IMG/VR virus record: IMGVR_UViG_3300038682_000023
Location: 1-29,264 of that record
DNA length: 29,264 bases
Strand: one strand, 5' to 3'
DNA from: a virus
Of the stretch, positions 2,051 to 20,262 are shown in pieces. How positions within the stretch are numbered: position 1 is the stretch's first letter; each line of letters starts with the position of its first letter. The notes beneath the pieces were generated by a model. The model worked only from the letters and a program-made list of their open reading frames with translations, did no database searches and was not told the DNA's origin. The position numbers and the translations under genes are program-made.

Positions 2051-2763
2051 AAACAATAACTAAAGAAGATATACAGAAAGCACTGCCTAGCCGAAAGGGC
2101 GGAGTGACGGAGGAGATCGTTGAGATAATCAATAGGAGCCAGACAGAGCCTGAATTTCAGGGAGAGAGTCTGTTGCAAACGGCTACTACATATGAGAGAG
2201 TACTACAACAGAACAAAGCAGGGATAAAACAGTATCTAAATGCGATAAGATTTTGTAGTTACTTGATATCGCTAGATGATAACTTTACAGAGGCCTATAA
2301 AAAAGTGTTCTGGGATACGGAGTTTGTTAAGAATAGAATGGACTTGAAGTCAGATGATGGACAGTATAAGGAATTGACTAGTGCCGCTAGTAGGTATAGA
2401 AAGAGTAAACTGGTTGTAGATATACTGACGGTTAGTCAAGTACCGATGCATTTGATGTTTACGGGAATGCAGTATCAAGCAGTGGGGGTGTTACATGAAG
2501 TAATGATGACAGCTAGATTAGATAGAGATAAGATTAATGCAGCTAAGGAGTTGCTAGCAGCGACTAAGGCACCTGAAAACATTAAAATAGACCTGGACGT
2601 AGGGGTAAAAGAAAATAGTGCTATACAGCAGTTAAATGATCAATTGGCGCAATTGGCCGGATCACAGAAGACGCAGTTGGAAGCAGGGAATACTGACTTG
2701 AAAGAGTTGGGAGCGTTGAAAGTAAAAGATGAAGATATGCTAGATGCGGAGGTAATAGGATGA
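2047..2763 (+). CDS. Probable terminase small subunit
   Basis: A 238-residue, largely helical protein directly upstream of the large terminase (only a homing endonuclease intervenes), where the DNA-recognition subunit of the packaging motor normally sits. The C-terminal part (LDRDKINAAKELLAATKAPENIKIDLDVG, about residues 158-186, then a Q/L-rich tail) resembles the end of several podophage and myophage small terminases, which terminate in a segment that contacts TerL or portal. The N-terminal half (about residues 40-110) would carry the DNA-binding helices, but no textbook HTH is obvious. Assignment is mainly from position, size and C-terminal style. Confidence 0.55.
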   Translation: MKTITKEDIQKALPSRKGGVTEEIVEIINRSQTEPEFQGESLLQTATTYERVLQQNKAGIKQYLNAIRFCSYLISLDDNFTEAYKKVFWDTEFVKNRMDLKSDDGQYKELTSAASRYRKSKLVVDILTVSQVPMHLMFTGMQYQAVGVLHEVMMTARLDRDKINAAKELLAATKAPENIKIDLDVGVKENSAIQQLNDQLAQLAGSQKTQLEAGNTDLKELGALKVKDEDMLDAEVIG

Positions 2764-3440
2764 CAATAACCGGGTGTATATACAAGCATACAAGTAAGAC
2801 TACTGGAAAGGCTTACATTGGACAAACAATAAAAGGTATGGGATATCGCTGGAAGTCACACTGCTGGGACGCAGAGAACTGTACGATGCCTAACAACCAC
2901 TTTCACAAAGCAATAAGAAAGTATGGTGATGATGATTGGGAGCATGAGGTACTGGTAGATGACGTACCGCAGGAGTTACTGAATGCGTACGAGCAGAATC
3001 TAATTGAGAAGTATGATACATTCAATAGTGGGTATAACTCGAACATAGGTGGCGGAAGTGCTATAGGGTATAGACATACAGAAGAACAAAAAGCTAAGAT
3101 AGGAGCTACCCATAAAGGTAAGAAGAAGTCTAAAGAGTCTATAGAGAAGCAAAGAAAAGCGCTGATAGGGCGTAAGATGCCAAAAGACCAAAAAGATAAG
3201 CTAATAGAGAAACAAATAGGAACAAAAAGTCACTACTTTACACCATGGTGGATTAGTTATCCAGATGGTACGTATGAAGAGCACCATACAATAACAAAGA
3301 CTGACTATGCAAAACTAAATGGCTGGGATGCTGGGACGTTTAGAGATAGGTTCAGCAAATCTAAGAATGTAGGACACCCTGGTAAACGTGGTGCGTTTAA
3401 GGGTGTCTCTGTAGGAAATATAGGGGAAATATATGAGTAA
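2760..3440 (+). CDS. GIY-YIG homing endonuclease with NUMOD3 repeats
   Basis: A 226-residue free-standing homing endonuclease. The GIY-YIG domain spans about residues 1-100: CIYKHTSKTTGKAYIGQT gives the two-strand signature, R in GYRWKSHC is the expected catalytic arginine, and YEQNLIEKY supplies the catalytic-glutamate helix, followed by GYNSNIGGG. Residues about 100-150 hold NUMOD3-type DNA-binding repeats (HTEEQKAKIGATHKGKK; SKESIEKQRKALIGRK). It sits exactly between the terminase genes and overlaps both (4 and 8 nt), as mobile free-standing endonucleases often do. It is closely similar in its nuclease part to the gene at 17138 (shared HFHxAIxKYG and EVLVD), so the two look like paralogues. 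Confidence 0.9.
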   Translation: MTITGCIYKHTSKTTGKAYIGQTIKGMGYRWKSHCWDAENCTMPNNHFHKAIRKYGDDDWEHEVLVDDVPQELLNAYEQNLIEKYDTFNSGYNSNIGGGSAIGYRHTEEQKAKIGATHKGKKKSKESIEKQRKALIGRKMPKDQKDKLIEKQIGTKSHYFTPWWISYPDGTYEEHHTITKTDYAKLNGWDAGTFRDRFSKSKNVGHPGKRGAFKGVSVGNIGEIYE

Positions 3441-5007
3441 AGAATACCAACCAACAACAGAAGCGCTTAAACTGATTGCGTTTATAAGGGCCGCTGGGAT
3501 AGAAGATAACGCAAATTCGGAAATACACTACCGCTTAGCAGATAAGTACTTCGGAACAGATAAACAGGTGCTGATAGAGAGTTTTAGGGGAAGTGCAAAA
3601 TCTACAATGATGGAGTGGTTTATTATATATGCTGCGGCGATAGGGGAGGTGCCTAACTTCGGACAGGTGGAGTTTATCGCGTTTATCGGGGATAGTGCCG
3701 AGAATGGGTGTAAAAACTTCGCGAGAAACGTAGTTGGGAAGATAGACAAATCGGAGTTCTTACGACAGTTTCTGGAAATAAAAAGAAAAACCGATAATGA
3801 AATAGAGCTGGTAAATAAAGACGGGAAAGAGTTGAATATAAAAACGTATGGTATGAAAACCAATATCAGAGGGGTTAGGTACAAAGGGGTAAGGCCAGAT
3901 ATTGTAATAATGGATGACGTTCAGACCAATGAGAGTTTGACATCAGAAACAATACAGAATACGATTAATGATAATTTCTATAAAGCAATTGTACCGGCAT
4001 TACACCCTACTAGGTATAGAATGTTTGTAATCGGAACTCCAATCTCTGAACGAGATATTTTATTTCAGTTGGCGAACAACCCTAGCTGGGTAGTGCATAA
4101 GTTCCCGATCTGTAACAAGTTTCCGTGTGAAGAGTCGGAGTTTGAAGGGAATTGGACCGATAGGTTTCCCTACGAAGCAGTAAATGACAAATACCAGATG
4201 TACAAATCGTCTGGAAAGGCGCAGGATTTCGCACAAGAGTATATGCTTGAATTGCTTGATTTAAGTGACTTGTTAGTGGAGGAAGATGATATTAGATGGT
4301 TTGACCCTAATATGGTGTTGAAGAATAGGGGGAATTATAACTTTTACATTAGTACGGACTTTGCGACTAGTACTAAGAAGAGTGCCGATTTCAGTACGAT
4401 TGGGATTTGGGCAATATCTAATAATAGTGATTGGTTGCTTGTTGATGGGCAATGTAAGAGACAGACAATGCAAGAGAATATCGAGGACTTGTTTAGATAT
4501 GTACAGAAATGGAAGCCGTTGTCAGTCGGAATTGAGAGTTCTGGACAGCAAGGTGGGTTTATTAGTATATTGGAAGAAATGATGATACAGAGGAATGTGT
4601 GGTTTCAGTTTGCGAAGAAGCCGGGAAGTAAAGATCCGGGAATTAGACCTAATAAGGATAAAGTGCACCGGTTTGTTACTGGGGTTCAACCGAAGTTTAA
4701 GCAGAATAAAGTGTGGTTCCCGAAGCCGGAGTCAGTTGGGAAAAGTAATCCGAGACTGATGGAATTGCTGGAGGAAATGGAACATGAATTAGGTAAGTTT
4801 ACGATGGCTGGAGGCGTTAAGAGTCTGAAGCATGATGATGCTATTGACTTGTTGAATCAGTTAAGTGAGATGGAGATATACGTGCCTAGTGTGGATGCCG
4901 GGATTGATGAGAAGAGTAGCATGGGGCAAGATGGGTTAGTGTGGACTGGTATCTGGGAAGATGACATGGACGAAGACCAGGGAGTTGGTGGAAGTACCGT
5001 ATTTTAA
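3433..5007 (+). CDS. terL: Terminase large subunit (packaging ATPase/nuclease)
   Basis: A 524-residue packaging motor of usual length. The ATPase domain has a Walker A-type loop FRGSAKST (residues 51-58) and a Walker B strand IVIMDD (157-162), followed by the coupling motif region VIGTP (199-203). The RNase H-like nuclease domain has its metal-binding acids in STDFATS (D309), GIESSG (E368) and KHDDAIDLL (D468/D469). It cuts concatemeric phage DNA and drives it into the prohead through the portal. The start follows AGGGGAAATAT and overlaps the homing endonuclease by 8 nt. Unusually, the portal gene is not next but about 10 kb downstream. Confidence 0.95.
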   Translation: MSKEYQPTTEALKLIAFIRAAGIEDNANSEIHYRLADKYFGTDKQVLIESFRGSAKSTMMEWFIIYAAAIGEVPNFGQVEFIAFIGDSAENGCKNFARNVVGKIDKSEFLRQFLEIKRKTDNEIELVNKDGKELNIKTYGMKTNIRGVRYKGVRPDIVIMDDVQTNESLTSETIQNTINDNFYKAIVPALHPTRYRMFVIGTPISERDILFQLANNPSWVVHKFPICNKFPCEESEFEGNWTDRFPYEAVNDKYQMYKSSGKAQDFAQEYMLELLDLSDLLVEEDDIRWFDPNMVLKNRGNYNFYISTDFATSTKKSADFSTIGIWAISNNSDWLLVDGQCKRQTMQENIEDLFRYVQKWKPLSVGIESSGQQGGFISILEEMMIQRNVWFQFAKKPGSKDPGIRPNKDKVHRFVTGVQPKFKQNKVWFPKPESVGKSNPRLMELLEEMEHELGKFTMAGGVKSLKHDDAIDLLNQLSEMEIYVPSVDAGIDEKSSMGQDGLVWTGIWEDDMDEDQGVGGSTVF

Positions 5008-5037
5008 GGTTAATACAAGGTCACTTTAGCTAAAATG
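5006..5037 (+). promoter_or_regulatory. Promoter-like element P3
   Basis: AAGGTTA (5006-5012) and AAGGTCA (5017-5023), 11 nt apart, precede TAAAATG (5031-5037), which starts 14 nt after the second box. It lies in the 55-nt gap after terL, one of few gaps between 1829 and 10866, and fits a start of transcription for the adaptor, fibre and DGR target genes. Confidence 0.55.
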
Positions 5038-5062
5038 TAGGAAAAATAGTCAAGGAGTAGGA

Positions 5063-5677
5063 ATGACGGTACAAGAAGTTATTGATATGGCTAAGTATGG
5101 GGAACTACAGAACTTAGGTACTAGTACTAATGTTAGTCAGATACTTAGTTACCTGAATTTAGGAGTACTGGAGCTGTATAAAAGGTTTCCGTTGAAAGTA
5201 GAGGAGCATATTATTACGTTGGTTGAGGGGCAGAGTATTTATACAATGCCTGCAGATATGATGTGGATAGTGGCAGCATACGAAGAGGTGTCAGAGGATG
5301 ATGCAGTAAGTTATACGAAGATAATACCAATTAATAAGGAAGAAGACGTAAAGAGTTTGAATACGATTAGTTGGAATCAAGTTCAGGTTCCGTTGGTAAC
5401 AAATGGGGCGTATATTTCGGTAATATACGTAGCTGCACCAGAAACGTATACAGAAAATGATTTAGAAGAAACATTGGAAATTCCGTTGCAAATGGTAGAG
5501 GCATTGTTAGGGTATATGGCGTTTAGGGCACATAGTGCGATTAATAGTGGAGATGAAGAAGCTAGGGTCCTGTACCAGGAATTTGAGGCAAGTTGTGATA
5601 GGTTATTGACTAAAGGAATGTTTAATCAAGATGACTTATATATGAGTGATCGTATAAAAGATAAAGGATTCGTATAA
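5063..5677 (+). CDS. Head-tail adaptor-like protein
   Basis: A 204-residue protein beginning MTVQEVIDMAKYGELQNLG, with an early helix ILSYLNLGVLELYKRFPL, a beta region in the middle (HIITLVEGQSIYTMPADMMWIVAAYEE) and a helical C-terminus (LQMVEALLGYMAFRAHSAINSGDEEARVLYQEFEAS). This helix-beta-helix order and length match phage adaptor proteins (DUF6682-like) that bind under the portal ring and join it to the tail. AAGGAG lies 6-11 nt ahead of the ATG. It ends in a 1-nt overlap with the tail fibre gene (TAATG), consistent with a connector-tail unit. Confidence 0.6.
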   Translation: MTVQEVIDMAKYGELQNLGTSTNVSQILSYLNLGVLELYKRFPLKVEEHIITLVEGQSIYTMPADMMWIVAAYEEVSEDDAVSYTKIIPINKEEDVKSLNTISWNQVQVPLVTNGAYISVIYVAAPETYTENDLEETLEIPLQMVEALLGYMAFRAHSAINSGDEEARVLYQEFEASCDRLLTKGMFNQDDLYMSDRIKDKGFV

Positions 5678-8088
5678 TGGCAATGAGAAGTACAAGCCTT
5701 ACGCAGGATAGTGTAGTAGCTATAGGTAGGGAAATTGGAAGTCAGTATGACAATGTAAAAGTAGTAGGAGATAGTATTGCAGATGTTACGACAGTAGCAG
5801 AGAGCATAGGAGCTGTAGGAATAGTAGCAACTAGTGTAGGGGCAGTTGTAGCGCTGGTAAATATCGATGCAGCTATTACAAGTTTGTATACGGATAAGGC
5901 TACATTGGATAGCCTATATGCAGATAAGGTAGTACTGGATAGTCTATATACGGATAAAGTGACACTTGACTCGCTATATGAAGATAAGGCTACGTTAGAT
6001 AGCTTGTATGCAGATAAGGCTATACTTGACAGCATATTTGCAGATAAAACAACGTTGGACAGCCTGTACGCAGATAAGGCAGTATTAGATAGTATATACG
6101 CAGATAAAGCTAAGCTAGATAGTATCTTCGCTGATAAAACTACATTGGATAGGATATACACATCTATAGGGAATATAGATAGAGTACATTCATCTATAGA
6201 TAATGTGGATATAGTAGGAGCTAGTATAGCTAATGTAGATGTTACAGCGCCTAACATAGGAAGTGTTAATACGGTTGCTGCTGGTATAGTGAACGTAAGT
6301 ACGGTCGCAACGAATATAGTAGATGTGAGTACGGTTGCAGGTGATACATTACAAATAAATGAAATTTATAATAATAGAGCAGAGATATACCAAGCGGATG
6401 ATAATGCGGTAACAGCTACCGCTAAAGCCGGAGAAGCATTTGATAGCGCTAATTACGCAGAGGAGTGGGCTAATAAGGCGGAAAATGTACTAGTAAGTGC
6501 AGCTGCAGGGGGTGATCAGATAGGTGATTACTCAGCAATGCACTGGGCACAGAAGACAGCAGCAGATCGGGCACAAACAACACTAGATAGAGCAGCGACA
6601 GCAGCGGATTTGGTAGAGACTAACCAAGATACAATGGATACAGCAGCCGATCGAGTACAGACTGGTTTAGATAGGGTTGCTACTGGTAACGATGTAGATA
6701 CTACTAACGCTGACGTTGTAACTACGAATGCTGATAGGGTGATAACTAATGCAGATGCAGTGCAGACAGGATTGGATAGAGTAGCGACTGGGAATGACGT
6801 AGCAGCTACGGCTCAGGATGTTTTAGATACTGCGGCTGACTTGGTTTTAACTAATGCAGATGTTGTATTGACACATGCCGACGTGGTTAATACAAATGCT
6901 GATGTGGTGACTACTGGAAACAACGTGACAGAGGCACAGGCTGCGCAAGGGCTGGCGGAAGATGCAAGAGACGCAGCAGCAATATCGGAAATAAACGCAG
7001 AAGCAGCATGGGATAGTCTAGATGATAGGTATCTAGGTATGAAGGTAGTAGAGCCTACGGCGGATAACGATGGAGATGCTCTGGTAGAAGGAGCGTTGTA
7101 CTGGAATAGTACGGATAAACAACTTTACGTGTGGGACTCGTTAAGTTGGGTAGATGCTGCGTTTAGTATAAATGAAGTAGTTACTAGTTTTAATACGAGA
7201 CAAGGTGATGTGATACTGACAGATGCTGACGTAGATGCGGCGGTAGGGCTGGATGTGAATGCGGCTATAACAGCTAATACGGTACATAGTACAAGTACAG
7301 GGGCAGACCATACGTATATAGATCAGGATGTGACAAGCACCGGTACACCAAGCTTTAACAGTGTGCAGCTAAACGGTGGAAGTGGTAGCCAAGGGCTAGT
7401 GACATGGAATGCAGATGAAGAGACCCTAGACCTACAACAGAATAACACGACATTGCAAATGGGGCAAGAAATACAAGCACATGTGAGAAATGGCAGTGGG
7501 AGTACGATAGTGAATGGAACTGTCGTGATGGTGACAGGTACACTAGGTGCAAGTGGTAAAATACTAGTACAACCATATGATGGTGTGTCGCTACCAAAGT
7601 ATATACTAGGTATTGCTACAGAAAGTATTGCTGATGGTGAAGATGGTAAGATAACTACGTTTGGTAAGATCAGAGGGTTAGATACATCTGCGTGGAGTGA
7701 AGGTGATGAGCTGTTTGTGACAACAAATGGTGGGCTGGTTAACACTGAACCAACTACAGGAGTGAAGGTAGCTATTGCGTATGTGATAAACGTGCATGCT
7801 AGTAATGGTACAATAATGGCTAGGTTTACACCGTATGATGAGAACTTGGCATATACAAAAGCTGAATCAGATGGATTACTGGATGATAAGCAGGATATAC
7901 TGGCAGAAGGCGCGTTTGTAGATGGAGATAAGACAAAACTAAATGGTATTGAATCTGGGGCTAAAGGGGATCAGGCAGCTAATGAAGTTCCAGTTACAGC
8001 TAATGGTAATTTAAGCTCAACTAATGTACAATCAGCATTAGAAGAACTACAAGAAGAGATAAATACAATAAATGAAGGAGAGTGGTAA
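5677..8088 (+). CDS. Long tail fibre protein with tandem coiled-coil repeats
   Basis: An 803-residue fibrous protein. Residues 69-158 are nine 10-residue repeats of S-L-Y-x-D-K-x-x-L-D; about 160-225 follow an 11-residue 'NVxxVAxxI' pattern; about 295-420 are heptads of the TNADVVT / TGLDRVATGND type seen in many phage fibres. A 'LYWNSTDKQLYVWDSLSW' beta module follows near 465-490, then a compact beta domain (about 595-730), and finally YTKAESDGLL plus FVDGDKTKLNGIESGAKGDQ, a recurrent fibre motif. It should form a trimeric shaft attached to the tail near the adaptor encoded upstream. Absence of a distinctive receptor-binding tip is notable: the tip role may be taken by the DGR-variable proteins downstream. 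Confidence 0.9.
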   Translation: MAMRSTSLTQDSVVAIGREIGSQYDNVKVVGDSIADVTTVAESIGAVGIVATSVGAVVALVNIDAAITSLYTDKATLDSLYADKVVLDSLYTDKVTLDSLYEDKATLDSLYADKAILDSIFADKTTLDSLYADKAVLDSIYADKAKLDSIFADKTTLDRIYTSIGNIDRVHSSIDNVDIVGASIANVDVTAPNIGSVNTVAAGIVNVSTVATNIVDVSTVAGDTLQINEIYNNRAEIYQADDNAVTATAKAGEAFDSANYAEEWANKAENVLVSAAAGGDQIGDYSAMHWAQKTAADRAQTTLDRAATAADLVETNQDTMDTAADRVQTGLDRVATGNDVDTTNADVVTTNADRVITNADAVQTGLDRVATGNDVAATAQDVLDTAADLVLTNADVVLTHADVVNTNADVVTTGNNVTEAQAAQGLAEDARDAAAISEINAEAAWDSLDDRYLGMKVVEPTADNDGDALVEGALYWNSTDKQLYVWDSLSWVDAAFSINEVVTSFNTRQGDVILTDADVDAAVGLDVNAAITANTVHSTSTGADHTYIDQDVTSTGTPSFNSVQLNGGSGSQGLVTWNADEETLDLQQNNTTLQMGQEIQAHVRNGSGSTIVNGTVVMVTGTLGASGKILVQPYDGVSLPKYILGIATESIADGEDGKITTFGKIRGLDTSAWSEGDELFVTTNGGLVNTEPTTGVKVAIAYVINVHASNGTIMARFTPYDENLAYTKAESDGLLDDKQDILAEGAFVDGDKTKLNGIESGAKGDQAANEVPVTANGNLSSTNVQSALEELQEEINTINEGEW
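5881..6150 (+). repeat. Nine tandem 30-bp repeats inside the tail fibre gene
   Basis: Nine in-register 30-nt units (starts at 5881, 5911, 5941 and so on to 6121) each encode a 10-residue unit of the form SLYxDKxxLD. Units vary mainly at third codon positions and in a few residues (Y/F, L/I), so they are old enough to have drifted but the period is perfectly kept. Copy number may change by recombination, lengthening or shortening the fibre shaft. Confidence 0.95.
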
Positions 8089-8333: not shown

Positions 8334-9521
8334 ATGAGTTTAGTTACAAGAATAGCGGAAGAAATAAATACAGTTCGTGGTGAGATAGTAAGCAATATAG
8401 CAATATACGCTGAAACTCCTAGCTACGGCTTAACATGGAATGAGACACTTGATACATACACAAGGGTAGGTGATAGCGACTACACAAGAATACAGTCAAA
8501 GTTGAGAAGGTGTGTGCTTGATGAAAACGCGCAAGTTAAGTACTACTTGCATCCAAGCAATAGCGACTTAAAGATGGACGGAACTCCAGCTATATTAGAT
8601 GGCAGTGATGGAGATGTGATGGTAGAAGTCCCATTGACGTATATGAAGTATACGTATGAGACTACTGGAAATGTGACACATTCATGGGAAATAAGTGATG
8701 TGGCAGAGGAAGGCTTTGAACCACATCCTTGCTTCGTTAGAGCAGGTGAAGTAGTTAAGTATAGATACTACCCAGCTTACTTAGGTACTGTGATAAGCGG
8801 TAGGTTACGAAGTGTAAGTGGTCAGTATCCTACAACTAATATAACCAGAGCAGCGTTTAGGAATGCCGCTAAAGCAAATGGAGAAAACTACCATCAGCTA
8901 GATTGGTTGCTGTATGAGTTCATAACACTACTTGCTATAGTGGAGTATGGGACTATGAATATTCAGCAAGCGCTAGGACAAGGCAGAACAGCATTAAGTG
9001 GAGGAAGTTGGTCTCCTGGCTCGTATATAGGGATTAATGGGCTAAGTAATAGATTTGGAAATAGCAGTGCTAACTACACATTTACTGGAGATGCCAACGC
9101 TACAGGAGCAGATAGTTCGTTTATATCGTATAGGGGATGTGAGAACTTCTTCGGAAATGTATGGAGATTTGTTGATGGTATAAATATACAGAACAATGTG
9201 CCGTTTATCAATGACAATCATAGAACGTTTGGTGATGATGTGTTTACAGGGGACTACAAAAGTGCTGGTGTGACGATGTCCGCTACAAACGGATATGCTA
9301 GAACACTACACAATAGTAACAAAGGGTTCTTCCCGAAAAGCGTAAGCGGAGGTTCTTCAAGCACAGGGACTACAGACTACTATTACCAAGCTAGCGGGAA
9401 CAGAATAGCGCTGGTGGGCGGTAATGCGGATAATGGTCTGGCTGCCGGTCCGCTTTATCTGAATGCGGATCGTGTGGCTTCTCTTGTGTATGTGGATCTC
9501 GGTGGCGCGCTCTCAGCTTAG
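8334..9521 (+). CDS. DGR target protein 1, C-type-lectin/FGE-like variable adhesin
   Basis: A 395-residue receptor-binding candidate. Residues 1-20 (LVTRIAEEINTVRGEI) match a coiled-coil style common at phage fibre ends. The rest is a formylglycine-generating-enzyme / C-type-lectin fold as in DGR variable proteins: YGLTWNE, VMVEVP, GTMNIQ (206-211), LSGGSW, and the diagnostic YRGCENFFGNVWRFVDG (266-282). Residues 359-394 are the variable region VR1 (IALVG ahead of it, GGALS at its end), where side chains differ from those encoded by the template repeat only through adenine changes. It is about half identical to the next protein by eye. RBS AAGGAG precedes ATG 8334. Likely displayed on the tail to bind the host. 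Confidence 0.93.
   Translation: MSLVTRIAEEINTVRGEIVSNIAIYAETPSYGLTWNETLDTYTRVGDSDYTRIQSKLRRCVLDENAQVKYYLHPSNSDLKMDGTPAILDGSDGDVMVEVPLTYMKYTYETTGNVTHSWEISDVAEEGFEPHPCFVRAGEVVKYRYYPAYLGTVISGRLRSVSGQYPTTNITRAAFRNAAKANGENYHQLDWLLYEFITLLAIVEYGTMNIQQALGQGRTALSGGSWSPGSYIGINGLSNRFGNSSANYTFTGDANATGADSSFISYRGCENFFGNVWRFVDGINIQNNVPFINDNHRTFGDDVFTGDYKSAGVTMSATNGYARTLHNSNKGFFPKSVSGGSSSTGTTDYYYQASGNRIALVGGNADNGLAAGPLYLNADRVASLVYVDLGGALSA
9408..9515 (+). repeat. DGR variable repeat VR1
   Basis: A 108-nt, gap-free match to the template repeat at 10958-11065 (offset 1550). There are 24 mismatches, and every one is opposite an adenine in the TR (A to G, C or T); no C, G or T of the TR is changed. The region encodes the C-terminal 36 residues before the final alanine of target protein 1. 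Beyond 9515 similarity ends abruptly. The end GGTGGCGCGCTCT is GC-rich and likely contains the initiation-of-mutagenic-homing site. Confidence 0.97.
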
Positions 9522-9540
9522 CAAGTAAAAAGGAAAATAA

Positions 9541-10866
9541 ATGAAATTAGATATATCAATAAACAAGAATAACATGGTAACTAAAGAACTAATGGATTTA
9601 GCTACATTAGACAGAGAAGAGGTGATAACAGCTACAAAGAGATTTGAAACTACTCCTGAAATAGTACATGCACCAACAAGAAATAGAGATGCAGTAAATA
9701 AGTTGTACGTAGACACATTGGTAGGAGTAAACGCACTAGGTGTAGAAGACTACCAAGGAGCTTACGGACTAGCCTGGAATGAAACAGCAGATACGTACGC
9801 TAGAACAGGTGCTGCAGGATTCAAGTCAATACAAGCCAGAATGCGAAGATGCGTGCTGAATGCTGATGGAAGTGTGAACTACTACCTGCACCCACTAGAC
9901 AGTACAAAAAAAGTGGACGGCTCATTAGCTAAGCTTGATGGTACAGACGGTAATGTAATGGTAGAAATACCAAAGTTCTACTATAAGTATAACTACAATA
10001 CTACTAGTGGAGTAGTACATGAGCATAGTATAAGTTTGACACCTGATGCAGGCTACGTAGTACACCCAGCATTCGTACGAGACGGTGTGGAACTAGACTA
10101 CAGATACAGAGCTGCATATGATGGATACAGAAGTGGTGGTAAGCTATGGAGTAGAAGTGGAGTGTACCCAAGCACGAATGTAAACATAACTCAATTCAGG
10201 ACAGACGCTAGAGCAAATGGAGCCGGATGGGAGCAGTTAGATTGTCTACTACATGAAGCTATAACGCTACTGTGTATGATTGAGTATGGTACTATGAATA
10301 TACAAAGTGCATTAGGTGAAGGTAGAACTATGTTAAGTGGTGGAAGTTGGACAGGCGGAAGTTATATCGGAATTACAGGACTAAGCAACTCATTAGGTAA
10401 TGGTAGTGGAAATGTAACATATGTAGGTGATGCTGATGATGCAGCAGCTGATGGTTCGTTCATGTCATATAGAGGAATAGAGAACTTCTATGGTAATATC
10501 TGGAAGTTTGCTGATGGTGTGTTATTCCAGAATAATGTACCCTATGTAAACCAGCACCCAAGTACGTATGATAGCACTACGTTAGGAGCTAATGATATAA
10601 GTACAGGTGTAACTATGACAGCAAGTGACGGATACGCTAGAAACTTAGGAAATAGTAACAAAGGATTCTTCCCAACATCAGTAAGTGGTGGGTCAAGTGC
10701 TACAGGAACTACAGATTACTTCTATGCTAACGACGCTGGAGAATTAGGAATAGCGCTGGTGGGCAGTTCTGCGAATCTTGGTCTGAGTCCCGGTCCGCTT
10801 TCTCTGTCTGCGACTCTTGTGGCTTCTAGTGTGTATGTGTCTTTCGGTGGCGCGCTCTCTCGTTAA
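9541..10866 (+). CDS. DGR target protein 2, C-type-lectin/FGE-like variable adhesin
   Basis: A 441-residue paralogue of the preceding protein with a longer N-terminus: residues about 30-60 contain FETTPEIVHAPTRNRDAVNKLYVDTL, a fibre-type 'DAVNKxYVD' attachment segment absent from protein 1. The lectin/FGE body shows YGLAWNE, VMVEIPKFYYKYNYN, GTMNIQSALGEGRT, LSGGSW and YRGIENFYGNIWKFADG. Residues 405-440 are VR2. The different N-termini suggest the two adhesins sit at different places on the virion or form a stack. The gene follows protein 1 after 19 nt with AAAAGGAAAA as ribosome site. It ends only 92 nt before the template repeat. Confidence 0.93.
   Translation: MKLDISINKNNMVTKELMDLATLDREEVITATKRFETTPEIVHAPTRNRDAVNKLYVDTLVGVNALGVEDYQGAYGLAWNETADTYARTGAAGFKSIQARMRRCVLNADGSVNYYLHPLDSTKKVDGSLAKLDGTDGNVMVEIPKFYYKYNYNTTSGVVHEHSISLTPDAGYVVHPAFVRDGVELDYRYRAAYDGYRSGGKLWSRSGVYPSTNVNITQFRTDARANGAGWEQLDCLLHEAITLLCMIEYGTMNIQSALGEGRTMLSGGSWTGGSYIGITGLSNSLGNGSGNVTYVGDADDAAADGSFMSYRGIENFYGNIWKFADGVLFQNNVPYVNQHPSTYDSTTLGANDISTGVTMTASDGYARNLGNSNKGFFPTSVSGGSSATGTTDYFYANDAGELGIALVGSSANLGLSPGPLSLSATLVASSVYVSFGGALSR
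10753..10860 (+). repeat. DGR variable repeat VR2
   Basis: A 108-nt gap-free match to the template repeat (offset 205) with 29 mismatches, all opposite TR adenines. It differs from VR1 at many AAT-derived codons (for example TCT, CTT, AGT where VR1 has AAT, GAT, GCT), so the two have diversified separately. Thirteen adenine-derived positions carry the same new base in both VRs, concentrated at the two ends. Confidence 0.97.
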
Positions 10867-10870
10867 AGTT

Positions 10871-10902
10871 AAGTAAACTAAAAGCAAAGACATAGTAAAA
10901 TG
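10871..10902 (+). promoter_or_regulatory. Promoter-like element P4, upstream of the template repeat
   Basis: AAGTAAA (10871-10877) and AAGCAAA (10882-10888), 11 nt apart, precede TAAAATG (10896-10902) at the 14-nt distance seen in the other elements. Transcription would begin near 10908, some 50 nt before the TR. A short hairpin (AGACAT 10888-10893 with ATGTCT 10900-10905) overlaps the -10 box. Confidence 0.45.
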
Positions 10903-10907
10903 TCTGG

Positions 10908-11177
10908 TCTGGTTCGCTACAAGACCTTAAAGAGTAGCGAGGGTACAGAAACAGAACACACTAGTGAGCAGTAATGCGAATAATGGTCTGAATACCAGTC
11001 CACTTTATCTGAATGCGAATAATGTGACTTCTAATGTGAATGTGAATATCGGTGACACGAACTCATTAAATAAATGACCGAACATCTGTACCCCATCACT
11101 TGATGAAAGATATAAAAAATCCCATTATATGTTGGTAGGTCTGATGATGCGAAGACGTAGGGATGAAATGAGAGAAA
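10908..11177 (+). ncRNA. Predicted DGR template RNA (leader, TR, structured spacer)
   Basis: This gene-free stretch should be transcribed as the RNA that the reverse transcriptase copies. It has a 5' hairpin (TCGCTAC 10914-10920 with GTAGCGA 10934-10940), the TR (10958-11065), and a 112-nt spacer before the reverse-transcriptase start with a further stem ATATAA (11110-11115) / TTATAT (11125-11130). In the Bordetella phage DGR the spacer RNA is needed for cDNA priming; the same role here is inference. Ends are estimates from the upstream promoter-like box and the next start codon. Confidence 0.5.
10958..11065 (+). repeat. DGR template repeat (TR)
   Basis: The 108-nt master copy holds 36 adenines. 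Read in the VR frame it has ten AAT and one AAC codons, the hallmark of DGR templates, because randomising both adenines of AAY reaches many residues but never a stop. No TR codon can become a stop by adenine change alone. It lies 3' of both VRs and 5' of the reverse transcriptase, all on one strand. In this frame it stays open to TGA 11075-11077, but it has no start codon and is probably not translated. Confidence 0.97.
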
Positions 11178-12134
11178 ATGAAACGACATGGTAACTTATG
11201 GAATAAAATAATAGATATGGACAACTTACTATTGGCACACAAGAATGCACGTAAAGGTAAAAGTAAGTACAAAGCAGTGAAGTTGGTAGATGAGAATGTA
11301 CAGCGGTACTGTGAAGAGATTAGGAAGATGCTAGTAAATAAAACATTCACTACATCAGAATACGATATGTTCATAAAGAACGATAGGGGTAAAGAGCGAG
11401 AGATATACAAGCTACCATATTACCCTGATAGGATAATCCAACATGCAATTATGCAAGTACTAGAACCTATATGGAAGAGTACATTGATAGCCGACACATA
11501 TCAATCAATAAAAGGTAGAGGAGTCCATAAAGTACTCCCAAAAGTAGTTAAAGCCGTACAACAAGACAATATAGAGTACTGCTTAAAAATGGATGTACAA
11601 AAGTTCTACCCTTCAATAAATAAAGACATAATGAAGAAAGTAGTAAGAAGAAAAATAAAATGCAAAGACACTTTATGGTTATTGGATAATATAATAAATA
11701 GTAGTGTTAATGGATTACCAATAGGTAATTATATAAGCCAGTATTTAGGTAACTTATATTTATCAGAGCTGGACCATAAAGTAAAAGAAGAAATAGGTGT
11801 TAAGTACTATTATAGATATTGTGATGATATAATAGTGTTGGCACAAAGTAAAAAAGAATTGCATAGTATACGTAGCTATGTAAACCTAGAACTACAAAAT
11901 GTAAAATTAGTACTTAAACAAGATTATAGAGTATACCCTACAATACAGGGTGTTGATGTACTGGGTTATATAGTAAGTAAAAGTAAAGTAAAAGTAAGAA
12001 GCAATGTAAAACAAAACATGATATTAAATTACTCAAAAAGGAATACTTCAAGTTATGATGGTATTTTAAAACACTGTGACTGTAATAGGTTAAAAAATAA
12101 ATTAAAAAGGAAGTTAGATGACACAATCTCATGA
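11178..12134 (+). CDS. DGR reverse transcriptase
   Basis: A 318-residue reverse transcriptase of the DGR clade. Motifs in order: PYYPDRIIQHAIMQVLEPIW (80-99), KGRGVHKVL (112-120), catalytic strand KMDVQKFYPSI (137-147, first Asp D139), the DGR signature GLPIGNYISQYLGN (179-192, i.e. IGxxxSQ), active site YCDD (214-217; YMDD in most DGRs) and LGY (262-264). It should make error-prone cDNA from the TR RNA, misreading adenines, for transfer into VR1 and VR2. It lacks integrase, RNase H and endonuclease domains, as usual for DGRs. AT-richer and lysine-richer than neighbours. It overlaps the DUF4376 gene by 17 nt. The upstream ribosome site GAGAGAAAATG is weak and close, so translation may be low. 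Confidence 0.96.
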   Translation: MKRHGNLWNKIIDMDNLLLAHKNARKGKSKYKAVKLVDENVQRYCEEIRKMLVNKTFTTSEYDMFIKNDRGKEREIYKLPYYPDRIIQHAIMQVLEPIWKSTLIADTYQSIKGRGVHKVLPKVVKAVQQDNIEYCLKMDVQKFYPSINKDIMKKVVRRKIKCKDTLWLLDNIINSSVNGLPIGNYISQYLGNLYLSELDHKVKEEIGVKYYYRYCDDIIVLAQSKKELHSIRSYVNLELQNVKLVLKQDYRVYPTIQGVDVLGYIVSKSKVKVRSNVKQNMILNYSKRNTSSYDGILKHCDCNRLKNKLKRKLDDTIS

Positions 12135-15170: not shown

Positions 15171-17141
15171 ATGGCTATTAAGAAAAATGAAATACTGAAT
15201 GCATTGAAGAATGACTTGAAGGCAGCTGACACGTTGAGGAGGACTTGGTTTAATAAGATCGAGGACTGGAAAAACGAGACTGCTGGAGAATTGTACGGGA
15301 ATGAAGTACAGGGTAAGTCGAAGATAGTATCTAAGGATATCTACAAGCAAAGAGAATGGATGATACCAAGTTTGGCAGATCCGTTCTTGAGTACTCCCGA
15401 TGTGGTTAAGTGTAATCCGGTGACGTTCGAGGATGCTGAGAGTGCACGACAGACTGAATTGCTGTTGAATACGCAGTTTTGTCGAAAGTTCCCAAGGTAT
15501 AACTTTATCATGAAGAGTTTACGGGTCTTAGCTACAGAAGGTACATTAGTGGTACAGACTGGATGGGACTATGAAGATGAAGAAGTAGATACTTACGTTG
15601 AGAAAGTAATGACGGATGAGTATGGGGTTCAGTATGTGGAAATGGTCGAAGAGACTGTTACGCAAGTGAAGAAGAATCAGCCTACTGCTGTTGTTTGTAG
15701 GAATGAGGATATTTACATTGACCCGACTTGTATGGATGATATGGACAAGTGCCAATTCGTGATACATAGATACGAGTCAGACCTAAGTACGTTGAGAGCC
15801 GATGGTAGGTATAAGAACTTGGAGAAAGTGGCTCAGAGAGAAGCAGGGAACGTTAGAGGGGAAGCGGATTATTATCCGGAAGACTTGACGTACTTTGACT
15901 TTGAAGATGCTGCTAGAAAGAAGATCGTGGTACATGAGTACTGGGGTAATTACGATGTAAATGGTGACGGGATAGCGGAGCCTATCGTATGTGCTTGGGT
16001 AGGGGATATAATTATTAGATTGCAGAGTAATCCGTATCCGGATCAGAAGCCACCGTTTGTGGTTGTACCGTTTAACGCTGTACCGTTTCAAATGCATGGA
16101 GAGAGTTTAGCGAGTTCAATCGGGGATAACCAGAAAGTGAAGACTGCGATTATTAGAGGTGTTATAGATAATATGGCACAGAGTAATAATGGACAAGTCG
16201 GAATGCGGCATGGTGCGTTAGATATGAATAATAGGAAGAAATTCCTGTCAGGAAAGAACTTCGAGTATAATGGGAATCCTGGGGATTTCTGGCAAGGAGG
16301 GTATAATAACATACCGTCGAGTGCGTTTGACATGCTTGGAGTACAGAGTAATGAAATCGAGAGTCAGACTGGAGTTAAGAGTTTCAGTGGTGGAATTAGT
16401 GGATCTAGCTTAGGTGGGACTGCTACGGGTGCAAGAGGTGCATTAGATGCGACTGCGACTAGAAGAATGAGTCTGGTACGAAATGTAGCAGAGAATCTAA
16501 TTAAGCCGTTAATGAGAAAGTGGATGGCGTATAACGCGGAGTTCCTTGAAGAAGAGGAAGTGGTTAGAATAACTAATGCAGAGTTTGTACCGGTTAGAAA
16601 AGATGACTTAGGTGGAAGAATTGATATTGAGATAGCAGTAGCTACAGCAGAGGATAACGCGGGCAAGGCAGAGCAACTAAGTTTCCTATTGCAAACAATG
16701 GGACCTAATCAGGATTTCCAAGTTACTCAACTAATGATGGCAGAGCTAGCTAGATTAAGCCGAATGCCTGAACTAGAAAAACAAATAAAAGAGTATAACC
16801 CGCAACCGTCACCAGAGCAACAAATGTTACAGCAGTTAGAGCTTGAAAAGAAACAACTAGAAAATAAAAAGTTACAAGCAGATATAGAAGATAAGCTAGC
16901 ACGAGCAGGTGAGAATATTGAGGACAGAAAGTATAAAGCATGGAAAGCAGAAGTAGAAAAAGCGAAAGCAAGAAAACTGGAGGCTGAAAGTGACTTAAAA
17001 GACTTGGACTTCCTTAAAGCAGACAATGAGTATGATAGAGTAGTGGAAAATGAACGAGCGTTGAGAGACCAAGCACATCAGAAAGAAATGGCAGTATTTC
17101 AGAAATTATCAGGTGATAAAAATATAGGGATGGTTAGATGA
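15171..17141 (+). CDS. Portal protein
   Basis: A 656-residue portal, the dodecameric ring at one capsid vertex through which DNA enters and to which the tail attaches. Support: N-terminal helix-rich part with RTWFNKIEDWKNE, QREWMIPSLADPFLSTPDVV (about 60-80), repeated acidic beta segments, the segment PPFVVVPFNAVPFQMHGESLASSIGDNQ (about 293-320), and SGGISGSSLGGTATGARGALDATATRRM (about 406-433), a pattern common in P22-like/podophage portals. Residues about 545-640 are a long E/K/Q-rich coiled coil, plausibly the barrel. Its distance from terL (10 kb) is unusual. Confidence 0.85.
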   Translation: MAIKKNEILNALKNDLKAADTLRRTWFNKIEDWKNETAGELYGNEVQGKSKIVSKDIYKQREWMIPSLADPFLSTPDVVKCNPVTFEDAESARQTELLLNTQFCRKFPRYNFIMKSLRVLATEGTLVVQTGWDYEDEEVDTYVEKVMTDEYGVQYVEMVEETVTQVKKNQPTAVVCRNEDIYIDPTCMDDMDKCQFVIHRYESDLSTLRADGRYKNLEKVAQREAGNVRGEADYYPEDLTYFDFEDAARKKIVVHEYWGNYDVNGDGIAEPIVCAWVGDIIIRLQSNPYPDQKPPFVVVPFNAVPFQMHGESLASSIGDNQKVKTAIIRGVIDNMAQSNNGQVGMRHGALDMNNRKKFLSGKNFEYNGNPGDFWQGGYNNIPSSAFDMLGVQSNEIESQTGVKSFSGGISGSSLGGTATGARGALDATATRRMSLVRNVAENLIKPLMRKWMAYNAEFLEEEEVVRITNAEFVPVRKDDLGGRIDIEIAVATAEDNAGKAEQLSFLLQTMGPNQDFQVTQLMMAELARLSRMPELEKQIKEYNPQPSPEQQMLQQLELEKKQLENKKLQADIEDKLARAGENIEDRKYKAWKAEVEKAKARKLEAESDLKDLDFLKADNEYDRVVENERALRDQAHQKEMAVFQKLSGDKNIGMVR

Positions 17142-17839
17142 GTACGTGGCTTATATACAAACACGAAAACGTACTAAATGGTAAGGTCTACATAGGCCTT
17201 ACGAAGTATACAATGGAAGCTAGATGGTCTAAGCACTGCTACTCTGCAAGATGTAAGCCAGAAGGGCATTTTCACCATGCAATAGCTAAATACGGCAGAG
17301 AAGTGTGGGAGTCTGAGGTTCTAGTGGACGGGTTACCTACGGAAGAGGAAGCCTTAGCAAAAGAGATGTACTATGTGGAAGTATATGATTCCATGAGGGA
17401 AGGGTACAACTCGACAGAAGGAGGGGACTACAACCCAATGATGGGAGCTGCGAAAGCTGACAGCGTAAGGAAACAACGAATAAGCCGAAAGGTACCGACC
17501 CACAAATTGTATAATGTTATCACAAGTAAAAGTTTTGAGGGATATGTAGGCGACTTAGCTAAATCGCTAGAACTAGGCGCTAGCGCCTTTTCTGGTGTAG
17601 TAGCAGGTAAACAAAGATCCGCACATGGCTGGGTGTTAGATACCCCAGCAAACCGAAATTACAAAATACTGAATAGGTACTGGTTTGTACATGATACCTA
17701 TGGTACAGACTACGCGACTATTGACGAAATGGTAAGAAAGTATCCTAGCATTACAAGTAGAGGTAACCTAAGTGGTGTTGTGTACGGTACAAGAAAATCC
17801 CACCAAGGGTGGCAAATAATACATAAGGATAAAAAATGA
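17138..17839 (+). CDS. GIY-YIG homing endonuclease 2
   Basis: A 233-residue free-standing homing endonuclease overlapping the portal stop and the next start by 4 nt each. Nuclease domain residues 1-105: WLIYKHENVLNGKVYIGLT, arginine in EARWSKHC, HFHHAIAKYG, and the glutamate helix near EEALAKEMYYVEVYD, then GYNSTEGG. The C-terminal half carries two copies of a short DNA-binding repeat ending VVAGKQRSAHGWVL and VVYGTRKSHQGWQII (NUMOD-like, 'xGxxxSxxGWxx'). Its nuclease domain is close to that of the gene at 2760, but the DNA-binding part differs, as expected for retargeting. Confidence 0.88.
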   Translation: MSTWLIYKHENVLNGKVYIGLTKYTMEARWSKHCYSARCKPEGHFHHAIAKYGREVWESEVLVDGLPTEEEALAKEMYYVEVYDSMREGYNSTEGGDYNPMMGAAKADSVRKQRISRKVPTHKLYNVITSKSFEGYVGDLAKSLELGASAFSGVVAGKQRSAHGWVLDTPANRNYKILNRYWFVHDTYGTDYATIDEMVRKYPSITSRGNLSGVVYGTRKSHQGWQIIHKDKK

Positions 17840-19542: not shown

Positions 19543-20262
19543 ATGAATGAAGAAGAGTACTACGTATATCTTCATCGATTTTCAAATGGTACGTTCTACG
19601 TAGGTAAGGGGAAGCAGTACAGAAGCACCTCAAAAAAACGTAACGCTTATTGGAAAAATCTACAGCGTAAGTATGGTGATCCTATCATAGGTACTTATAG
19701 AGAAAGCCTTAAAGAAGAAGATGCATTTGAGTTAGAAGTAGCACTGCTACGTCTTTTTAAAGAAGCATCAATACCTGTATGTAACCTTACAGCAGGTGGT
19801 GAAGGGCTTAGTGGTTATAAGCACACAAAAGCAAGTAAAGAAAAGATTTCTAGAGCACTAGTTGGCAATAAGTACTCCAACCCTGAAATATTGCGTAAAT
19901 GGAATGTAAACAAAACTGATACTACTTTGTATACTTTTTACCACCCTTTACACGGGGTTGTAGAAGCCTACTGCAAAGAGCTAGCTACAAAATACAGTCT
20001 GTATCTTTCTGGAGTACACGCGGTCGCCAAAAATCGAGTGAAAAGTACTAAAGGTTGGACGCTTAAAGGCGCATCTAAGCAAGTACGTGGTAAAATATAC
20101 CAATTTACCAACGCTAATACACAGCAAGTAGTTGCAGGTACTTATAAGGATTTAGAGAGGGAGTATGACATATCTGCTAGCTCATTACACAAGCTAGTTA
20201 AAGGTAAAATAAAACAAACCCGACAAGGTTGGGAGTTTGACAAGGAAGTAAGAAATGATTGA
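19543..20262 (+). CDS. GIY-YIG homing endonuclease 3 with NUMOD3 and C-terminal repeats
   Basis: A 239-residue homing endonuclease distinct from the other two. The GIY-YIG signature is YYVYLHRFSNGTFYVGKG at the N-terminus; the acidic helix is AFELEVALLRLF and the domain ends CNLTAGGEG (about residue 90). A NUMOD3 repeat (YKHTKASKEKISRALVGNK) follows, then two C-terminal repeats ending HAVAKNRVKSTKGWTL and HKLVKGKIKQTRQGWEF. It lies between the gene at 19215 and the scaffold gene and overlaps the latter by 8 nt. Confidence 0.88.
   Translation: MNEEEYYVYLHRFSNGTFYVGKGKQYRSTSKKRNAYWKNLQRKYGDPIIGTYRESLKEEDAFELEVALLRLFKEASIPVCNLTAGGEGLSGYKHTKASKEKISRALVGNKYSNPEILRKWNVNKTDTTLYTFYHPLHGVVEAYCKELATKYSLYLSGVHAVAKNRVKSTKGWTLKGASKQVRGKIYQFTNANTQQVVAGTYKDLEREYDISASSLHKLVKGKIKQTRQGWEFDKEVRND

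Follow-up and report, generated by a model that had tools for sequence, protein, structure and literature searches.

The question raised by this locus is how the adenines of a single template (TR) of a diversity-generating retroelement (DGR) are read, and whether that template serves two adjacent target genes. The answer that we regard as highly probable is that an Avd-less phage DGR uses one TR to diversify a pair of adjacent, paralogous tail proteins of the C-type-lectin kind, and that the lineage to which it belongs reads template adenines in two ways.

The locus and its template alignment

The window, i.e. the whole stretch of DNA analysed, is the linear virus record IMGVR_UViG_3300038682_000023 of IMG/VR (positions 1 to 29,264; 29,264 bases). 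It encodes a terminase large subunit, an SU10-type adaptor, a tail fibre, a portal, an endolysin, and major head and tail proteins, and the terminase, portal, head and tail genes identify it as a fragment of a tailed phage. The tail fibre gene (5677–8088) lies directly upstream of the two DGR targets and contains 30-nt tandem units at 5893–6162, which encode 10-residue repeats similar to DKATLDSLYA. Four homing-endonuclease-like genes (T5orf172; three of the four assigned to phrog_314, GIY-YIG type) were found at 1071–1487, 2760–3440, 17138–17839 and 19543–20262, two of which adjoin the terminase and portal genes; another lies next to a tape-measure-like gene. The anatomy of the DGR is summarized in Table 1.

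Table 1. Features of the DGR in the window, followed by Rfam RT-family RNAs located at other DGRs.
Feature	Record	Position	Strand	Basis or remark
Target gene 1 (VP1; 395 aa), variable phage tail protein with predicted C-type-lectin fold	window	8334..9521	+	phrog_5302, E 4e-84; VR1 at 3′ end
VR1	window	9408..9515	+	all 24 mismatches to TR face a template adenine
Target gene 2 (VP2), 441 aa, paralogue of VP1	window	9541..10866	+	phrog_5302, E 6e-86; VR2 at 3′ end
VR2	window	10753..10860	+	all 29 mismatches to TR face a template adenine
Small inverted repeat AGACAT-AGTAAA-ATGTCT	window	10888..10905	+	sequence, folding; 28 nt after VR2
TR with 36 adenines, some lone and some in AAT/AAC pairs	window	10958..11065	+	TR/VR alignment, codon table
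TR-RT spacer RNA, Rfam RT-17, core UUGGUAG...CGAAG	window	11089..11178	+	full-length match, 36.8 bits
DGR reverse transcriptase (RT), 318 aa, IGNYISQ and YCDD	window	11178..12134	+	RVT_1, E 5e-17; phrog_1423, E 2e-94; bRT 8ub7, E 1e-28
Rfam RT-family RNA	L188	3309–3458		
Rfam RT-family RNA	L194	3358–3474		
Rfam RT-family RNA	L187	3334–3477		
Rfam RT-family RNA	L197	3221–3403		
Rfam RT-family RNA	L115	4382–4485		

TR was realigned to both VRs without gaps, which reproduced the coordinates and the adenine-facing mismatch counts of an earlier note on this DNA exactly. VR1 is identical to TR at 84/108 positions (A>G 16, A>C 5, A>T 3) and VR2 at 79/108 (A>G 11, A>C 9, A>T 9), with zero mismatches at non-A template bases in either. 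With 36 adenines in 108 bases, the chance of every mismatch facing an A is 3.5e-12 for VR1 and 1.5e-14 for VR2. Both VRs lie in frame within their target genes, and no TR/VR pairs other than TR–VR1 and TR–VR2 emerged when the whole window was scanned independently. The VR ends, inspected for IMH/IMH*, have GGTGGCGCGCTCTC in common versus GGTGACACGAACTC in TR, with all differences at template A. A hairpin of the form GGTCT...AGACC was observed just 5′ of TR (10906–10926), and likewise in the close relative L026 (about 2588–2606).

Reverse transcriptase, spacer RNA and Avd

The RT motifs IGNYISQ and YCDD named in the earlier note are both present in the open reading frame. The best solved relative of the RT by sequence is the BPP-1 bRT (8ub7, E 1e-28), compared with 4e-15 for the best group II RT, and the NCBIfam models for group II, retron and DRT enzymes scored far below their cut-offs throughout. 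Judged by these similarities, the RT is of DGR type, its resemblance to group II and retron RTs being weaker, in line with the DGR assignment of the earlier note. It further groups by similarity with the RTs of crAss-like phages and of Psychrobacillus phage Perkons.

The TR-RT spacer was compared with Rfam family RT-17 and matched over the full length (E 1e-4 to 6e-6), just missing the gathering score of 40.4; scores above the gathering score were obtained in the TR-RT interval of seven relatives. Other DGRs carry different families in this interval, namely RF03022 (Phage_DGR) in BPP-1, RT-3 in hankyphage, RT-4 in Epona and RT-14 in BalMu-1, while RT-15 sits between avd and TR in Magia. RT-3, RT-4, RT-14 and RT-17 thus map to DGR TR-RT spacers, and DGR is named in RF03022 only. 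A HEARO RNA (HNH endonuclease-associated) was observed at 4885–5113 of record L002, downstream of a related DGR.

A search for bAvd (PF22296) detected all positive controls (BPP-1, BalMu-1, YPCBV-1, VP58.5 and Magia) and gave no match in the window record, which may be an incomplete contig, nor in Perkons, four crAss-like phages and vir525; in the 282,855-base phage record L124, a single sub-threshold match was found. VR2 and TR are only about 100 nt apart, too close together for an Avd gene to fit there, and no convincing match to Avd or to any other known accessory domain came out of a scan of small open reading frames. The absence of Avd and the target-TR-RT order fit the Avd-less lineage 3 of the crAssphage LMMB DGR, as presented in PMC7290462. 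According to the same paper, that DGR also has its VR at the 3′ end of a tail-protein gene; the window differs in having two adjacent targets and in belonging to a phage not known as crAss-like. The crAss-like RTs are 40–47% identical to the window RT.

Two classes of template adenine

A lone adenine was defined as an A with a non-A base before it and G or C after it (NA[GC]). TR/VR pairs were collected with a script written for this analysis, which favours or tolerates mismatches at template A over others and was used identically for the controls. In the window, the adenines of AAT/AAC codons vary freely between VR1 and VR2, and lone adenines are mostly G in both (18/20 at NA[GC] sites), including the silent changes CTA>CTG and CCA>CCG. 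Across the viral lineage, lone NA[GC] adenines are G at 91% of 429 sites from 49 TRs (88–94% on bootstrapping TRs), and at 90% where rewritten AA adenines lie on both sides. Silent four-fold third positions are G in 94% of cases (n = 77), as are those flanked on both sides by rewritten adenines (94%, n = 36). The notion that the Gs common to VR1 and VR2 are unconverted flanks was dropped, the bias being equal at sites flanked by rewritten adenines. Among bacterial relatives, 73% of lone NA[GC] sites and 89% of the silent ones are G. The sharpest context is CAG, with G at 95% of the viral sites (n = 168) and 98% of the bacterial ones (n = 186); TAC and GAC are weaker in the bacterial relatives (about 0.4 G).

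The controls behave differently at lone sites: Avd-type DGRs (61 TRs) have 25% G and 68% unchanged A, with 36% G at silent sites (n = 11), and Arawn/Epona-type DGRs (46 TRs) have 20% G and 61% unchanged A, with 5% G at silent sites (n = 21), figures to be read with the higher GC content of control TRs (0.54–0.57 vs 0.42) and their few silent lone sites. AA-type adenines are similar in all groups, with 40–44% A (44% in the viral lineage, 44% in Avd-type and 41% in Arawn/Epona-type DGRs) and the rest spread. Non-A template positions show 31 differences in 3,981.

Independent VRs on the same TR provide a further view of the two classes. Lone sites were G in all VRs in 28 cases, mixed in 14 and A in all in none, as against 9, 154 and 20, respectively, for AA sites. 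At bacterial multi-VR loci, CAG sites were G in every VR in 58/60 cases; over all lone NA[GC] contexts, every VR had G at 90 sites and A at 32, and 65 sites were mixed. At positions where one of two related TRs has A and the other G, both VRs carry G at 126/165 sites of the lineage and at 25/84 control sites, the pattern that equivalence of A and G at such TR positions would produce. Lone adenines number 8.8 per TR in the viral and 7.1 in the bacterial members of the lineage, compared with 2.3 and 3.1 in the controls. A cultured example is found in the complete genome of [Clostridium] asparagiforme DSM 15981, whose DGR of this lineage has G in the VR opposite 11/11 lone adenines of the template.

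The two classes bear on the analogy with Bordetella phage BPP-1 drawn in the earlier note. The TR/VR/RT logic and the adenine specificity of that system held, as did a C-type-lectin tail protein (Mtd) and a structured TR-RT spacer RNA as points of likeness; it needs correcting on two points, in that Avd is absent from the window and lone adenines become G rather than being scattered at random. BPP-1 further differs in having one target, a spacer of family RF03022 and almost no lone template adenines. Its bRT has been mapped (PMC12875486), which is the only context map of a DGR RT in the literature searched: misincorporation averages 31% and depends on context, being steered by the neighbouring bases and chiefly by the 3′ one, and of all errors dC is the most frequent. 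This resembles the situation described here, except that no context with near-complete A-to-G conversion is reported in the text of that study. An earlier DGR survey took adenine substitutions as essentially random (PMC3521204). The crAss-like DGRs likewise turn lone adenines to G, and two-mode template reading is not mentioned for the crAssphage LMMB DGR in the available text of PMC7290462. The literature searched, with subscription papers lying outside it, contained no description of a lone-A-to-G rule, which may be known elsewhere.

As an explanation, we lean towards an RT ribonucleoprotein (RNP) that, throughout a large Avd-less lineage, works in two modes set by the neighbouring bases, so that AA pairs are randomized and a lone A before G or C almost always yields G. 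One TR would then encode both variable and fixed bases, and A and G would be interchangeable at its lone positions. The RT would hold the TR transcript by way of the RT-17 spacer RNA and reverse-transcribe it, and the cDNA would replace the 3′ end of either target gene. In this process, the RT or its RNP would insert dC opposite lone adenines almost always, so these would nearly always be copied as G, while adenines of AA pairs, mostly in AAT/AAC codons, would remain A in about 40–50% of cases and otherwise become G, C or T. The lone adenines would thus act as hidden Gs that hold the scaffold constant, and the AA pairs would diversify the binding surface. We infer this role of the RT or RNP as the best explanation because silent sites are G, which protein selection cannot cause, and because the AA adenines serve as internal controls. 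Codon- or RNA-level selection may contribute to G at lone sites, as the VRs are seen after selection.

Two other explanations were weighed and both appear improbable. A plain BPP-1-like DGR might convert A to N at random everywhere, the G excess at lone sites then reflecting purifying selection on scaffold residues of the targets; many lone adenines do lie in codons with conserved Gly or Ala in the VR form, and VR scaffold residues are known to be constrained (PMC7290462). We nonetheless consider this unlikely, as it is contradicted by the 94% G at silent four-fold third positions, including those flanked by rewritten adenines, and by the absence of the bias in BPP-1/Avd-type and Arawn/Epona-type DGRs. 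Similarly low credence is given to conversion of the lone TR-RNA adenines to inosine, or some other modification, by a host or phage enzyme ahead of reverse transcription, after which any RT would read G. Editing would produce just such a near-complete, context-dependent A-to-G pattern; against it, no deaminase was identified in the cassette, and the trait tracks the RT lineage, in phages as well as in hosts from different phyla. On our own 70-row RT tree, the trait needs 2 changes, compared with 7.7 when shuffled; the deep branches of this tree are weak, so the mapping shows clustering rather than a single origin. The preferred reading remains dC insertion by the RT or RNP of this lineage.

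Two targets on one template

The earlier note had described a DGR with two adjacent paralogous targets and one template, which was borne out: both targets are phrog_5302 tail proteins (56% identical), and copying from TR has left its mark in each VR. The coding DNA upstream of the VRs is 63.2% identical (669/1058). In the variable ends, VR1, VR2 and TR agree at 72/72 non-A columns (p about 5e-15 at the upstream identity), and VR1 and VR2 differ from each other at template adenines only. Such agreement despite 63% upstream identity points to TR as the source of both, the straightforward reading of the alignment being that both target 3′ ends have been rewritten from the window TR. The competing proposal that a single target is served, and that the second VR is a passive copy derived from recent gene duplication or gene conversion between paralogues, would suit adjacent paralogues of which VR2 alone has a nearby inverted repeat, but is the least probable of the readings considered given the low upstream identity and the agreement of both VRs with TR at all non-A columns. 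A recent duplication was rejected on the tree, which leaves VP1, VP2 and the relatives L101 and L026 unresolved at similar distances; because VP1 is as far from VP2 as each is from L101 and L026, recent duplication does not account for the agreement between VR1 and VR2. We thus retain service of both targets from one TR.

The inverted repeat after VR2 has no equivalent after VR1. It is a possible, if weak, counterpart of the BPP-1 target hairpin and is not conserved in relatives, in which a search for a BPP-1-like hairpin after the VR gave nothing consistent; VR1, lacking it, may be a poorer target.

A structure model of VP2 was computed from 30 aligned sequences (pLDDT 81). Its only strong PDB matches were to the DGR protein TaqVP (E 1e-11, prob 1.00), followed more weakly by BPP-1 Mtd (prob 0.75), with modest TM-scores of 0.24–0.45. 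A C-type-lectin fold like that of TaqVP and Mtd is therefore predicted for the targets. By analogy with the family, VP1 and VP2 would act as receptor-binding adhesins and vary as a pair. The DGR is probably active at present, to judge from one assembled sequence. An exact-pattern search of viral contigs found no other copies of the window TR/VR, so population-level variation cannot be read from assemblies.

The frequency of this layout was assessed in relatives of the same RT, phage relatives being counted only where 2.5 kb or more of sequence preceded the VR. Two VRs were found in 2/50 phage relatives, namely the window and L124, and more than one VR near TR in 27/69 bacterial relatives, consistent with the earlier statement that two-target DGRs are less common in phages. 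L124, of the same RT lineage, likewise has two adjacent paralogous targets and one TR, with VRs at 2542–2648 and 4049–4155. A survey recorded multiple VRs in 271/948 DGRs (28.6%; PMC6642488), with one TR and several targets, a survey-level class of which the window locus is one more member; a figure of about 13% of DGRs with two targets is cited in PMC10743442. The latter also describes the gut phages nd4 and nd12 (tentaclins), which share with the window one TR, two VRs and two phage proteins with C-type-lectin domains; their targets differ in architecture and one of the two VRs sits close to the 5′ end, whereas the window has paralogues with both VRs 3′. Taken together, the survey and the counts in relatives indicate that the two-target layout is uncommon in phages of this lineage yet already known, and the window locus is one more two-target phage DGR.

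The locus provides natural evidence that the variable ends of two paralogues, although these have diverged to 63% identity, can be kept in step by one TR. Should reading of lone adenines as G be the rule, both the repertoire of the DGRs of this lineage and the selection acting on them would be overestimated at lone sites. If the explanation is true, the RT of this lineage would be a natural variant with strongly context-dependent fidelity, which is directly testable.
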